Source of the DNA: a virus
Strand: one strand, 5' to 3'
DNA: 64,000 bases
Virus record (IMG/VR): IMGVR_UViG_3300011445_000020
Coordinates: 1 to 64,000 of that record
The notes under the pieces were generated by a model. The model was not told the DNA's origin, did no database searches, and was given only the letters and a program-made list of their open reading frames with translations. This document shows positions 11,761 to 46,355 of this stretch, one piece after another; positions within the stretch are counted from its first letter, which is position 1, and the number at the start of each line of letters is the position of its first letter. The position numbers and the translations under genes were made by a program.

Positions 11761-12059
11761 GCGTTCCTCCGTGGGTCTTCGCCGACCTGCCCGATGTGTA
11801 GGAGTTCGATGTTGTCGGTGTTGAGAATCTTCACGATTGAACGCTCGGGGACCTCGATTTCGGGGAACTTGCGCTCGCGCGCTGCCACCTCGATCAGTTC
11901 CATCGCGTCCTTCGGGCTGAGCGCGACCTCGACGACTAGCTTCGTGTCGCCCATGTCGTTGACATCGTGCCCGAAGACACGCACGTAATCGTGCTTGCGA
12001 CCGTTGAGGTTCTGTACTGCAACGACCTGGAGCGTGGTGAACTGCGGGGGCGTGTTCAT
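11757..12059 (-). CDS. Hypothetical protein (100 aa)
   Basis: The product is an alpha/beta protein (FTTLQVVAVQNLNGRKHDYV, then LVVEVALSPKDAMELIEVAA, then a basic/acidic end). The ATGA start and GTGA end tie it to both neighbours. No family recognised. Confidence 0.55.
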   Translation of the reverse strand: MNTPPQFTTLQVVAVQNLNGRKHDYVRVFGHDVNDMGDTKLVVEVALSPKDAMELIEVAARERKFPEIEVPERSIVKILNTDNIELLHIGQVGEDPRRNA

Positions 12060-12229
12060 AGGTAGTCCAGCCCGTCATCGTCGAGGTAGGGGTCACAGTA
12101 CTGACATTCAATGTCAGACCAGTGGTTTACTTCACCACAGTTGCCACACTCCCACATTTCCGAGTCTTCATCCTCGGAATCGTACCAATCGTCATCCATC
12201 TCGTTAGGGTCAACGTTGCTTGGGATCAC
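12056..12229 (-). CDS. Acidic zinc-ribbon protein (57 aa)
   Basis: GTG at 12229 (GTGA overlap). The product is very acidic (NEMDDDWYDSEDEDSEMW), followed by a CGNC...CQYC zinc ribbon and an acidic end. The TGA overlaps the next ATG. Such acidic ribbons recur in this arm; function unknown. Confidence 0.6.
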   Translation of the reverse strand: MIPSNVDPNEMDDDWYDSEDEDSEMWECGNCGEVNHWSDIECQYCDPYLDDDGLDYL

Positions 12230-12570
12230 ACGGTCTCCCGCTTCGCACGGCGACGTGCAGCACCCTGCCCCTTGCGGCTGACGCCGTCCCGTTTAGGGTA
12301 AGTCTTCTGGATGTGCTGCTCTACCCGAGGGTCCTTCCCCTGATTGCCGATTGCCCAGAAGACAAAACGCTGCATCGCACGCGAACGAGGTTTGATTGCG
12401 AAGTACTCTTCGCGGCCTACCTTGCTAGCGTAGGTGTAGAACCAGAACGCGCGCCCCGGCTTGCCGACTGCAAAGACTTCGGCCGAACGAGGGACAGCGA
12501 TAGTCTGCCTATCCATCGGACCACCGAGGAGCTTCACGTTCTTCGTCTGTACTGCCGTGGTGTCAGCCAC
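12226..12570 (-). CDS. Hypothetical protein with GGP-M-D motif
   Basis: From GTG 12570 the 114 aa product begins ADTTAVQTKNVKLLGGPMDR, then IAVPRSAEVFAVG, a pattern seen in small actinophage and other phage proteins of unknown function, and ends in a basic KGQGAARRRAKRE tail. It overlaps the next upstream gene by 8 bases. Confidence 0.5.
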   Translation of the reverse strand: MADTTAVQTKNVKLLGGPMDRQTIAVPRSAEVFAVGKPGRAFWFYTYASKVGREEYFAIKPRSRAMQRFVFWAIGNQGKDPRVEQHIQKTYPKRDGVSRKGQGAARRRAKRETV

Positions 12571-12913
12571 TGAGCGGCTCCTTGAACTTGGTGTGAATGC
12601 CACGCGCGAGCTTGAGTCTCCCGACGCTCGGGGTCTTCACGACGGTGATCTCGCCGTCCACAGTTACGATGGTACGTGACGCGTGCAGATGTGCCTCCTC
12701 ACGGAAGCCTTGGTTCACGAAGGCGCTAAAGCCTTTCGAGAGGCCCTTAGTCTCGACTGCGCGCTTCTGCCGAGCGGTAAGCCACCGCTTCTGCTGCTTC
12801 GCACGACGATCTTTGTTCATCGCGGTGCGCATCGACTGGCGTGTCTTCTGATCCGCAGTCTTCTGCTTCTTACCAGTCTTCTGTGCGCCATCTGCGGACT
12901 TACTCTTGCCCAT
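12563..12913 (-). CDS. Basic hypothetical protein
   Basis: A 116 aa protein with a Lys/Gln/Arg-rich first half (KKQKTADQKTRQSMRTAMNK) and a beta-rich second half (RTIVTVDGEITVVKTP). It could bind nucleic acid. Family unknown. Confidence 0.5.
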   Translation of the reverse strand: MGKSKSADGAQKTGKKQKTADQKTRQSMRTAMNKDRRAKQQKRWLTARQKRAVETKGLSKGFSAFVNQGFREEAHLHASRTIVTVDGEITVVKTPSVGRLKLARGIHTKFKEPLSG

Positions 12914-12928
12914 GTTGCTGCTCCTGGG

Positions 12929-13096
12929 TTAGGGTAGGGGTTCCAGCGCGCTCACACGCGCTTTCAGGTTGTCGATCTGCATTTGAAGGTCTGCGATGTA
13001 GCGGCTCGTGTCGTCGTAGCTCCAGAGTTCAAGCGCGAAGTGGAGTAGCGTACAGAGCGCGATACATGCAAGCGTGTGCTTCCAATGGCCTTTCAT
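12929..13096 (-). CDS. Small membrane protein with coiled coil
   Basis: ATG 13096 has GGGAGG upstream. The 55 aa product has one TM helix (LACIALCTLLHFALELW) and then a coiled coil with heptad Leu/Ile (IADLQMQIDNLKARVSAL). The topology is that of a small membrane-anchored coiled-coil protein; function unknown. Confidence 0.55.
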   Translation of the reverse strand: MKGHWKHTLACIALCTLLHFALELWSYDDTSRYIADLQMQIDNLKARVSALEPLP

Positions 13097-13263
13097 GTGC
13101 ACCTCCCGCAGTATCCGCAAGCCTGCGAGCACGTACGTTCGCTCGGGTTGTAGTACTGCGGCGTTTGAGAACGGCGTGGTGATGGCTCAGGTTTCGCGAG
13201 CCGCTCCTGCGCACGCTCGATAGCTGCGTCGCGGAAGTCACGATTGATCTCTTCGTTGTTCAG
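13093..13263 (-). CDS. Candidate 56-aa protein with a CTG start
   Basis: A frame fills the gap between two genes exactly: its TGA overlaps the ATG at 13096 (ATGA), and it opens at CTG 13263, overlapping the previous stop as CTGA, with GGAGG just upstream. The peptide NNEEINRDFRDAAIERAQER looks native, and it ends with a CSQACGYCGRC zinc-like cluster. No ATG, GTG or TTG is available near the start. CTG use is inferred, so confidence is limited. Confidence 0.42.
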   Translation of the reverse strand: MNNEEINRDFRDAAIERAQERLAKPEPSPRRSQTPQYYNPSERTCSQACGYCGRCT

Positions 13264-13463
13264 ATGTCCTCCAGACGATCGTGCGCGTGCGTGAGGTTGA
13301 GAAGCGTGAGATTGAGGAAGGTAGACAACAGGGGGTTACCGATGCCATCGTCGCCTACATCACGCAACGCGTGGCGAATCTCGTTGCGGGCGGTCTCGAT
13401 GCGCGTACGGAGGCGATCGATCGCTCCAGCACGTGCGATTGCGTCAGCGGTGTTGCGTGCCAT
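13260..13463 (-). CDS. Small helical protein
   Basis: ATG 13463 with GGAGG upstream gives a 67 aa helical protein (RNTADAIARAGAIDRLRTRI...). It is the first gene downstream of hammerhead ribozyme 1, whose CUGAUGA-GUCC strand ends 19 bases before the start codon. No known family. Confidence 0.55.
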   Translation of the reverse strand: MARNTADAIARAGAIDRLRTRIETARNEIRHALRDVGDDGIGNPLLSTFLNLTLLNLTHAHDRLEDI

Positions 13464-13482
13464 TGGCTTCCTCCATGTGTTG

Positions 13483-13580
13483 GGACTCATCAGCACCAGC
13501 GTATACTGGTGGACACGTAGAGTGACCGGAGCGTCCGAAAGGGACCGAGAACCATCCTCCGGGCTCTGCGTGTTTCGTCC
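13483..13580 (-). ncRNA. Hammerhead ribozyme 1 (type II)
   Basis: On the minus strand, 5' to 3': GGAC (13580-13577), GAA (13576-13574), ACACG (13573-13569), a 51-base loop III, CGUGU (13517-13513), C17 at 13512, a stem I hairpin CACCAG-UAUACG-CUGGUG (13511-13494), the core CUGAUGA (13493-13487) and GUCC (13486-13483). Stem III (ACACG/CGUGU), stem I (6 bp) and stem II (GGAC/GUCC) all pair, and the conserved core GAA, UH and CUGANGA is intact with a GUC-type cleavage site after 13512. The ends open on stem II, hence type II. Loop III folds further (CCGGAG/CUCCGG, GUCC/GGAC). It starts right after a TAA stop codon. Confidence 0.87.
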
Positions 13581-13727
13581 TTACTTCACCAGAGCCATCG
13601 CAGCCACGTAGGCCCGCGACTTCTCCTTCGCACGGCCCCCAACGAGGGCACTCTCATCTGCGTTCCGGCCTTCCCGCCAGTCGGCAACCTCGGTGACAGC
13701 GTTGTACGCTGCCCACACGGTGCGCCA
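13581..13727 (-). pseudogene. C-terminal remnant of a DUF932 protein
   Basis: One minus frame without its own start encodes TVWAAYNAVTEVADWREG... and ends ...VAAMALVK at 13581. W..YNAVTE..D is the hallmark near the C-terminus of the DUF932 phage/plasmid family (about 250-350 aa when complete). AGGAGG and an ATG at 13728 lie just upstream, but that ATG is in another phase and gives only 24 codons (13654-13728). This looks like an internally deleted, frameshifted gene. Its stop codon abuts ribozyme 1. Confidence 0.55.
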
Positions 13728-13741
13728 TTAGTGTGCCTCCT

Positions 13742-13915
13742 CTACGAGACGGGTTCGATGATGATGGTTCCGTTTCCGGGGACGATGCGCATCGGTCTGT
13801 CGCTCAGGGTCGTTGTGAACGAGACAACACCACGCTCGGTCACGTTAGGAAACTCCTTCGCCTTCCACGTGCGCGCATGGCGTTCGTGGCTCAGGATCAA
13901 GGTGATCTCGTACAT
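13742..13915 (-). CDS. Small hypothetical protein between ribozymes 1 and 2
   Basis: ATG 13915 with AGGAG upstream; a 57 aa beta-rich product (MYEITLILSHERHARTWKAK, SFTTTLSDRPMRIV, GTIIIEPVS). The open frame extends upstream through ribozyme 2, but that part is not protein-like. After cleavage at both type II ribozymes this gene would sit on the excised RNA of about 451 nt. Function unknown. Confidence 0.6.
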   Translation of the reverse strand: MYEITLILSHERHARTWKAKEFPNVTERGVVSFTTTLSDRPMRIVPGNGTIIIEPVS

Positions 13916-13933: not shown

Positions 13934-14064
13934 GGACTCATCAGTGTGCGCAGTTACGCACAGACGCGCGTGGTTCTTAGCAGAGCACTTTCTCTGGCTC
14001 TGCATCTTGCAGCCGCTTCAGCCCTAGCCGGGCATCCACGGGCACTACCACGCGCGTTTCGTCC
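13934..14064 (-). ncRNA. Hammerhead ribozyme 2 (type II)
   Basis: On the minus strand: GGAC (14064-14061), GAA (14060-14058), the 11-nt stem III strand ACGCGCGUGGU (14057-14047), a 72-base loop, its perfect partner ACCACGCGCGU (13974-13964), C17 at 13963, stem I UGUGCG-UAACUG-CGCACA (13962-13945), core CUGAUGA (13944-13938) and GUCC (13937-13934). Every conserved core element is present. Stem III is 11 bp, stem I 6 bp and stem II 4 bp. The first G of GGAC is the last base of the upstream TAG stop codon. Its stem II arms are identical to those of ribozyme 1. Confidence 0.92.
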
Positions 14065-14189
14065 TAGTTCTGCTCTGCGCAGTCGCAGTGATCGAGGTGA
14101 CAGGCGCAGTGCTCGCACCATGCCCACTCTTCAGCGGGGATATTGCGGATGTCGAAATCGAGCGGGACAACAACCTCAGTCTTCGGCAT
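14064..14189 (-). CDS. Cys-rich small protein (41 aa) between ribozymes 2 and 3
   Basis: ATG 14189 with GAGGAG upstream. The product begins PKTEVVVPLDFDIRNIPAEE and ends WCEHCACHLDHCDCAEQN, a possible zinc-binding cluster. The stop codon TAG shares its G with ribozyme 2. It is the first gene of the leftward transcript after ribozyme 3. No family known. Confidence 0.55.
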   Translation of the reverse strand: MPKTEVVVPLDFDIRNIPAEEWAWCEHCACHLDHCDCAEQN

Positions 14190-14202
14190 GATGTGGCTCC
14201 TC

Positions 14203-14316
14203 GCGGTTTCGCCCTCGCGGGCTCGTCAGTGGTGCGATTCTCTCGATACACTTCCGTGCGTTCTAACCGGACGCTATCCGGCTTCGCTCACACGAGAGAA
14301 TCTAGCACCAGACCGC
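14203..14316 (-). ncRNA. Hammerhead ribozyme 3 (type III)
   Basis: On the minus strand: GCGGU (14316-14312), C17 at 14311, stem I UGGUGC (14310-14305) continued by AUUCUCUCG (14301-14293), a structured loop, CGAGAGAAU (14245-14237) and GCACCA (14235-14230), core CUGACGA (14229-14223), stem II GCCC-GCGA-GGGC with a GNRA tetraloop (14222-14211), GAA (14210-14208) and ACCGC (14207-14203), which pairs with GCGGU as stem III. The ends open on stem III, hence type III. N7 is C, which the core allows. Stem III is only 5 bp, and a promoter-like sequence overlaps the 5' part. Confidence 0.82.
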
Positions 14317-14328
14317 TACACCCGTCAA
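14299..14328 (-). promoter_or_regulatory. Candidate leftward sigma70 promoter
   Basis: TTGACG (14328-14323), an 18-base spacer, then TAGATT (14304-14299) on the minus strand. It would drive the whole left arm. A transcript started here (near 14292) would lack the cleavage site of ribozyme 3, so either the promoter is spurious or ribozyme 3 acts only on longer RNAs. Confidence 0.4.
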
Positions 14329-14841
14329 GGTCGTTCCACTGGGTCATCGCGTTTTCAGCCGACTGCGCTGCTAACCGCTCGCACCGTGATAGCGTGCGTC
14401 TCTTGGTCGCGGTAGGTCGCTCTAGTGTGCGTCACCTTGGAGTGTCTGATTGGCCTGCTTCGCGACGCCTTGCGGGCGTTGTTCGCTGGCAGGTTTCGTT
14501 GGAGCGTGCTCGCATCAGCTATGGTCGGGTCGTGAATGGCACTCGACGTGCGCGGGCCTCTAGAGGGCCGTGTGACCTGCTTCGCGCTTCGCTCGCTCCT
14601 GTCACGGGGTTCGCTTGCTGCTTCCGTCCCACGGCGGCCCTGTCGGGCGCTTCGGGCTCTGACGCTTACCTCGTGTGAGGATTCACTATCGCACTCTCTG
14701 TGCCAGCCTGTAACTTGTGCTGCCACAATACCGCAGCCACCGAAGGAACCTCGATCCTGGGCGAAATGCCATTGCGTCAGGGGCATCTAGCAACGTCTTC
14801 ATGCCAGCCGTTTCTCGCCCGCCGCGCCTCCTCATGTGCCC
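14317..14841. other. Non-coding divergent region, nothing clear
   Basis: About 525 bases between the left arm and the rightward promoter. It is GC-rich, with short repeated GCTTCGC-type words. Long open frames exist on both strands but are Arg/Ser/Ala-rich and lack ribosome sites. It may hold an origin, structured RNA or distal control sites; I see no clear iterons or terminator. Confidence 0.4.
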
Positions 14842-14856
14842 GTTCCAAAGTGGAAC
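14842..14856. promoter_or_regulatory. Operator-like inverted repeat
   Basis: GTTCCA-AAG-TGGAAC, 34 bases upstream of the -35 box of the rightward promoter. The right half with its flank, TGGAACAGC followed by a GCGC-rich run, recurs downstream of the promoter at 14954-14962. Two related sites flanking a promoter suggest repressor binding. Confidence 0.4.
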
Positions 14857-14889
14857 AGCCGCGCTTGACAAGGGCATGACATGTCTGGC

Positions 14890-14919
14890 TTGACAGTGGC
14901 ACGCTTCTTGGGGTATGAT
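14890..14919 (+). promoter_or_regulatory. Rightward sigma70 promoter
   Basis: TTGACA at 14890-14895 is a perfect -35 box, and TATGAT at 14914-14919 matches five of six -10 bases, with an 18-base spacer. A second TTGACA lies at 14865-14870 without a matching -10. It precedes the whole plus-strand structural block after a leader of about 200 bases. This is the clearest promoter in the window and implies use of the host RNA polymerase. Confidence 0.75.
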
Positions 14920-45829: not shown

Positions 45830-45836
45830 CGTCGTA

Positions 45837-45908
45837 TTCGGAAGGCAGGATTCGAACCTGCATGTCGCCCATTGAATAGGGTCGCCTTACCTGTTGGCTA
45901 CTTCCGAA
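45837..45908 (-). tRNA. tRNA with atypical anticodon arm (isotype unresolved)
   Basis: A 72-nt cloverleaf on the minus strand: acceptor TTCGGAA/TTCCGAA, D arm GCC...GGC with GG in the loop, T arm GCAGG-TTCGAAT-CCTGC. The anticodon region ACCCTATTCAATGGGC pairs only as CCC/GGG with an 8-base loop, one base short overall, so the anticodon cannot be fixed (TTC and TCA are the possibilities). CCA is not encoded, which fits the phage's own CCA-adding enzyme. Confidence 0.6.
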
Positions 45909-45910
45909 CA

Positions 45911-45985
45911 TGGGGTGACGGCCGGAAGTCGCATCCGGTAAAGGAGCTTCACAGGCTCCCAGTTCCACTCTTCACTCTCCGTCAC
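45911..45985 (-). tRNA. tRNA-His (GTG), CCA encoded
   Basis: Acceptor GTGACGG/CCGTCAC (7 bp), discriminator C73 and an encoded CCA (45911-45913). Anticodon arm GGAGC-CTGTGAA-GCTCC gives anticodon GTG. T arm CCGGA-TGCGACT-TCCGG has G instead of T at position 55. C73 is as expected for tRNA-His, but the base at -1 is T rather than the usual encoded G. Confidence 0.7.
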
Positions 45986-45992
45986 AGCGTAA

Positions 45993-46074
45993 GGCGCAGG
46001 GCCGGAGTCGAACCGGAATGGCCGGGCACTAGTACAGGTGCTCCGACTATCTCTCTGTACAGGGCAGGCACGCC
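45993..46074 (-). tRNA. tRNA-like gene, poorly folded
   Basis: A clear T arm (CCGG-TTCGACT-CCGG) and a weak acceptor pairing GGCGTGC with CTGCGCC (wobbles, one mismatch). The middle pairs as GCAC-CTGTACTA-GTGC, an 8-base loop containing GTA. With a full tRNA-Tyr(GTA) next door, this may be a decayed tRNA or one needing repair. Confidence 0.35.
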
Positions 46075-46108
46075 ACAAGCCTGCTTCCGCTGCTGCCACA
46101 AATCTGGT

Positions 46109-46191
46109 GAGTGTGGTAGGGATCGAACCTACCGTCGCCCGTAAGCGGCCGGAGTTACAGTCCGGTGCACCACCTTTGGTGCGTCACACTC
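46109..46191 (-). tRNA. tRNA-Tyr (GTA)
   Basis: An 83-nt class II tRNA. Acceptor GAGTGTG/CACACTC, D arm GCACC...GGTGC, anticodon arm CCGGA-CTGTAAC-TCCGG with GTA, long variable arm CCG-CTTA-CGG, T arm GTAGG-TTCGATC-CCTAC. All arms pair. Confidence 0.9.
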
Positions 46192-46197
46192 TTTAAC

Positions 46198-46270
46198 ACC
46201 TGACAGAGGATTCGAACCTCCCGACCCGACTAACCCGTGCACGGTGTCGCAGTAACATCCAGTTCCAGGT
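46198..46270 (-). tRNA. tRNA-like gene, anticodon uncertain
   Basis: The T arm GGAGG-TTCGAAT-CCTCT and the acceptor ACCTGGA/GTCAGGT (six pairs incl. one wobble, one mismatch) are recognisable. The anticodon region is irregular: ACC-GTGCACG-GGT would give GCA (Cys) on a 3-bp stem. Possibly a decayed or non-canonical tRNA. Confidence 0.4.
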
Positions 46271-46280
46271 GTATTTTGGT

Positions 46281-46355
46281 TGGGGAGGCGGGATTCGAAC
46301 CCGCGTTCTCCTGCGTCCAAGGCAGGCGGTGTAGACCAGACTCACCTACTCCCCA
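46281..46355 (-). tRNA. tRNA-Pro (TGG)
   Basis: Acceptor TGGGGAG/CTCCCCA, D stem GGTG/CACC, anticodon arm CCTGC-CTTGGAC-GCAGG with TGG, T arm GCGGG-TTCGAAT-CCCGC. All stems are perfect. Its 5' ten bases overlap the last codons and TAG stop of the RlaP-like gene, so RNase P processing would cut that mRNA inside its final codons. Confidence 0.92.

Follow-up and report, generated by a model that had tools for sequence, protein, structure and literature searches.

The window, by which we mean the whole stretch of DNA analysed, comprises 64,000 of the 64,080 bases of IMG/VR record IMGVR_UViG_3300011445_000020. The presence of a large terminase, a portal-like protein and endonuclease VII families identifies its source as a tailed phage. 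No DNA similarity to the window was found among named phages, and the closest named terminases are only 22–23% identical to that of the window. Long ORFs run leftward to the left of ~14.3 kb and rightward from 15.1 kb; the ~550 bases between the two operons (14320–14890) are without a convincing gene. A cluster of three tRNA genes (Glu, Tyr, Pro) lies further along, at 45836–46355 on the minus strand. The head of the leftward operon carries three hammerhead elements (HH3, HH2 and HH1, in the direction of the genes) and four small ORFs, arranged as follows:

14299–14328, minus strand: candidate promoter-like element TTGACG-18-TAGATT, sigma-70-like, with a TG before the −10
14202–14317, minus strand: HH3, leader hammerhead of the leftward operon, type III; cut predicted between 14311 and 14310
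14064–14189, minus strand: 41-aa ORF, Cys/His-rich, between HH3 and HH2; SD GAGGAG
13934–14064, minus strand: HH2, type II hammerhead, recognized by its core, GUC, three stems, fold z and covariation with relatives
13742–13915, minus strand: 57-aa ORF downstream of HH2; SD AGAGGAG
13581–13718, minus strand: 45-aa ORF with a GTG start, ending in a TAA that abuts HH1
13483–13580, minus strand: HH1, type II hammerhead, from scan and fold; cut predicted between 13512 and 13511
13260–13463, minus strand: 67-aa ORF downstream of HH1, starting 19 nt past the ribozyme; SD GGAGG

HH2, the element under study, is the middle one of the three; its minus-strand orientation had been left unstated in a preliminary description of this DNA. 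All three elements are on the strand of the genes and each immediately precedes an SD and start codon; HH3, which has a consensus core, is separated by 12 nt from the ATG of the 41-aa ORF. Pfam assigned no family to any of the four small ORFs. The GTG start of the 45-aa ORF follows soon after an in-frame stop and lies beside an SD-led ATG of another frame; this ORF may be what is left of a longer gene.

Read 5′ to 3′ from 14064 to 13934, HH2 is GGAC-GAA-ACGCGCGTGGT...(hairpin)...ACCACGCGCGT-C^TGTGCG-TAACTG-CGCACA-CTGATGA-GTCC, with its elements in the order GGAC-GAAA-III-GUC-I-CUGAUGA-GUCC. The invariant core is complete, with CUGAUGA, GAAA and the GUC cleavage triplet all present. Stem III consists of 11 perfect pairs, A15.1-U16.1 included, stem I of six Watson-Crick pairs with the loop UAACUG (up to eight pairs, should U-G and A-U close the loop), and stem II of four (GGAC/GTCC). 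The identity, core and stem lengths (11, 6 and 4 bp) given in the preliminary description are thus borne out by our reading of the sequence. Stems I and III are closed by loops and stem II is open, which is the type II topology, and the ~90-nt stem III insert between GAAAC and GUC forms a long hairpin. The TAG of the 41-aa ORF occupies 14066–14064 and its G doubles as the first base of HH2, the fusion of stop codon and ribozyme claimed earlier; the last base of HH2 (13934) and the next ATG (13915) are separated by 18 nt, again as had been described. The cut is predicted after GUC, between 13963 and 13962, where it would indeed part stop from start, leaving a 101-nt tail upstream and a 47-nt leader downstream. 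On these features HH2 reads as a textbook type II hammerhead, and self-cleavage is predicted. Pairing between loop I and the 3′ tail reaches at most three pairs in HH2 and two to three in HH1; among the 203 type II elements of the survey described below, at least four such pairs occur in 66, against 37 expected.

The folding z of HH2 is −3.6. Its unconstrained minimum-energy fold contains stems I and III, with a weak hairpin involving the SD region in place of stem II, and forcing stem II costs just 1.0 kcal/mol. The unconstrained minimum-energy folds of HH1 and HH3 are the type II and type III hammerheads, respectively. A loose scanner was run, as a control for chance, on 38.4 Mb of surrogate sequence made up of 600 second-order Markov copies of the window. 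A single type II match scored at least 20, and its stem I insert was very long and its triplet UUU; surrogate matches overall were scattered and mostly had long inserts. The window itself has three matches inside 0.85 kb on one strand, against almost none in the 600 surrogates. The Rfam models missed HH1, HH2 and HH3 alike, HH2 being without a match at the gathering score and uncalled even at E ≤ 10, probably because the models were built on short loops and the three ribozymes have long inserts (in HH2, that of stem III). The only weak Hammerhead_1 match over HH2 (E 1.3) implies a different, wrong pairing and was rejected.

Relatives were collected as terminase relatives and as hammerhead pattern matches and compared with the window's genes. 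Four loci have terminases 78% (L017), 74% (L018), 64% (L019) and 48% (L011) identical to that of the window, and a fifth (L030) has a small terminase-like protein and four operon genes in common with it; these five belong to the same phage group as the window. A type III hammerhead is kept at the head of the leftward operon in all five, at a distance of 0.9–1.3 kb from the oppositely oriented small terminase-like gene; that of L019 has a stem III of just 3 bp and the triplet GUA. A type II hammerhead is also kept in L018, L011 and L030, and in L018 the G of a TAG is again common to stem II. The window's array, in which several coding-strand ribozymes flank single genes, has similar counterparts in these three loci. 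The relatives share genes with the window further down the operon but have no counterparts of the ORFs adjoining the ribozymes. In the more divergent terminase relatives L021, L022, L023, L025 and L026, neither a strict nor a relaxed type III scan found a hammerhead.

Among the relatives, stem I is almost fully changed and the core is fixed. In the trimmed alignments, both sides had changed in 7 of 15 type III pairs (a count reached in 0 of 500 shuffles) and in 8 of 16 type II pairs (5 of 500 shuffles), and the counts for both types exceed all slid controls; these counts lean towards structure, since the alignments were hand-cut to the helices and took in L006 and L029, whose membership of the group is not established. 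That HH2 is an inactive relic or a chance match, kept by DNA-level constraints alone, is very unlikely in view of this covariation and of the clustering of three elements described above, even allowing that 4 of 18 consensus hammerheads were inactive, and 14 active, in the tests of Perreault et al. (2011; PMC3088659).

The stem III inserts tend to be longer in this phage group than in most of the type II elements surveyed, and that of HH2 is both long and stably folded, so that it might be taken for an aptamer through which a ligand switches cleavage. We consider such a ligand-controlled ribozyme very unlikely: the inserts of five elements of the group have no common sequence (shared words) above chance, and hence nothing that points to a ligand-binding domain, and the 11 perfect pairs of stem III place the insert remote from the core. 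The preliminary description had suggested that cleavage could switch downstream translation or decay. The first of these is unsupported, as the inserts lack a common sequence and the layout resembles constitutive processing, the role put forward for similar arrays by Perreault et al. (2011; PMC3088659). Decay might plausibly be affected, should HH2 cleave as predicted.

To place HH2 among its kind we drew on a survey of ~120 viral and bacterial loci obtained from pattern scans, which hold 203 distinct type II hammerheads, with up to eight in one locus. An ORF of at least 30 aa ends in a stop codon 2–8 nt before GAAA in 131 of the 203 (65%), compared with 3.5% of random positions drawn from those loci, and an SD and start follow 15–35 nt after the core in 125 (62%), compared with 5.6% of random positions. 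Both occur together in 81 elements (0.15% of random positions), and the antisense control gave 21, 8 and 0 for the stop, the SD/start and both, respectively. The order of stop, ribozyme, SD and start is therefore common in type II hammerheads of phages and prophages and is no peculiarity of the window. Three viral contigs each carry four to six type II elements within a few kb (L050:1569–5184, L070:4990–9738 and L054:3845–7221). Two further loci, on contigs titled Phycicoccus jejuensis (L158) and Streptomyces iakyrus (L159), have three type II elements each at near-identical spacing, and are possibly related prophages or a cross-contaminated assembly.

An alternative is that ribosomes ending or starting beside the ribozyme, which the stop and the next SD abut, would block its folding, so that only poorly translated RNA would be cut and then degraded. 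The one-base overlap of stop and HH2 is consistent with such gating, as are the surveyed elements that lie against a stop or against an SD/start, and GUCC of stem II has two possible partners, GGAC and the SD region downstream. However, tight spacing is also expected of a dense phage genome, in which intergenic gaps are minimal, and the type III ribozymes of leaders are without an upstream stop; we regard decay gated by translation as unlikely.

Prophage clusters of type II hammerheads flanking single genes were described by Perreault et al. (2011; PMC3088659), who had proposed intercistronic processing for them; three arrays cleave in vitro, and one also in E. coli. According to a 2017 review (PMC6155905), prokaryotic hammerheads flank small non-conserved ORFs and are linked to phages, and their role is an open question. 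The present locus closely fits that description; this kind of element is already known, and the example is clean and conserved. HH2 has in common with the type II hammerheads of bacteria and prophages (PMC3088659) the closed stems I and III with a short open stem II, the CUGAUGA/GAAA core with a GUC site, and the clustering on the same strand around single small phage genes, but differs in its ~90-nt stem III insert and in the base common to stop codon and ribozyme. A pseudoknot contact between loop I and the tail is found in most, not all, type II hammerheads, but cannot be made out clearly in HH1 or HH2, with their three pairs at most. HH3 resembles HHphage of the haloviruses HF1/HF2 (PMC3088659) in standing a short way ahead of a start codon where an early phage operon begins; in HHphage, a 5′ RNA end was mapped to the cleavage site. 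HHphage is a core variant from an archaeal virus, whereas HH3 has the consensus core. The ardA prophage array of Agrobacterium tumefaciens likewise has three hammerheads on one polycistron around small genes. That array is active in vitro and in E. coli. Its ribozymes surround ardA together with a gene of unknown function, those of the window short ORFs without family matches.

Cleavage at two neighboring hammerheads could alternatively yield small circular RNAs, HH3 and HH2 (or HH2 and HH1) releasing an RNA with a 5′-OH and a 2′,3′-cyclic phosphate that a ligase would close. The RNAs between the hammerheads (348 and 451 nt) would have ligatable ends, and retrozymes work in this way (PMC7761336). 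Perreault et al. (2011; PMC3088659), however, looked without success for circular or spliced products of comparable arrays, and the RNAs of the window hold ordinary ORFs with an SD and a stop. Circle formation is accordingly very unlikely.

We consider it probable that HH2 acts by constitutive intercistronic cleavage, through which a polycistronic early transcript would be converted into short mRNAs with hairpin ends. The leftward transcript strand carries all three elements, and each would fold and cut after its own NUH triplet, as is known for consensus hammerheads. A ribosome terminating at the TAG would sit over the opening bases of HH2 and may thereby hold up cleavage; once the ribosome ending at this abutting stop has left, HH2 would fold and cut. 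The message of the upstream 41-aa ORF would retain the 101-nt 3′ tail, closed off by the stem III hairpin and a terminal 2′,3′-cyclic phosphate, and the downstream message would begin with a 5′-OH at the stem I hairpin, its AUG preceded by the 47-nt leader, so that type II topology would leave both new RNA ends structured. The predicted products of the three cuts are a discarded leader, the 348-nt RNA with the 41-aa ORF, the 451-nt RNA that holds both the 57-aa and the 45-aa ORF, and the remainder of the operon. The likely gain would be separate stability, or lifetime, and translation of small accessory genes.

Intercistronic cleavage is supported by the complete core and stems of HH2, by the position of three same-strand ribozymes before an SD and start, and by the retention of type III and type II elements in relatives, with covariation, despite unconserved small ORFs. 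The spacing seen in the survey (65%, 62% and the 81 elements with both) and the active arrays of Perreault et al. (2011; PMC3088659) point the same way. Some observations count against it: the short stem II lies outside the unconstrained minimum-energy fold of HH2, loop I and the 3′ tail form three pairs or fewer in HH1 and HH2, and the promoter-like element shares bases with the 5′ strand of HH3, upstream of the other parts of that ribozyme. If this element marks the true start, HH3 would be without its own cleavage site in that transcript. A counterpart in L017 (TTGACC-18-TACAGT) likewise overlaps the 5′ strand of the type III hammerhead of that locus, and no promoter-like element lies over the type III hammerhead in L018, L011 or L030.

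The locus offers a compact test case, with three ribozymes of two topologies at one operon head that are conserved while the flanking genes change, and the tight stop/ribozyme/SD spacing across the 203 type II elements brings both a role as punctuation and the link of that role to translation within reach of direct tests. An upstream stop is missing in 6 of 7 type III elements and present in 157 of 204 type II elements (Fisher p = 0.001), a sorting by topology that is a lead, not a result, because the sample comes from scans with type II patterns and consists of related members. Neither this sorting nor the measured stop/SD spacing was found in the open-licence literature searched. We tentatively raise the possibility, itself rather doubtful, that topology is a positional code, with type III at the operon head and type II fused to stops between genes, the modules persisting while small genes are exchanged. 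Under such a code, type III would trim the leader and give a structured 5′ end, and type II would cap both ends with hairpins. A separate locus, L031, has three type I hammerheads in a row (11879–13659), with the stop codon of the preceding ORF inside the open stem I.
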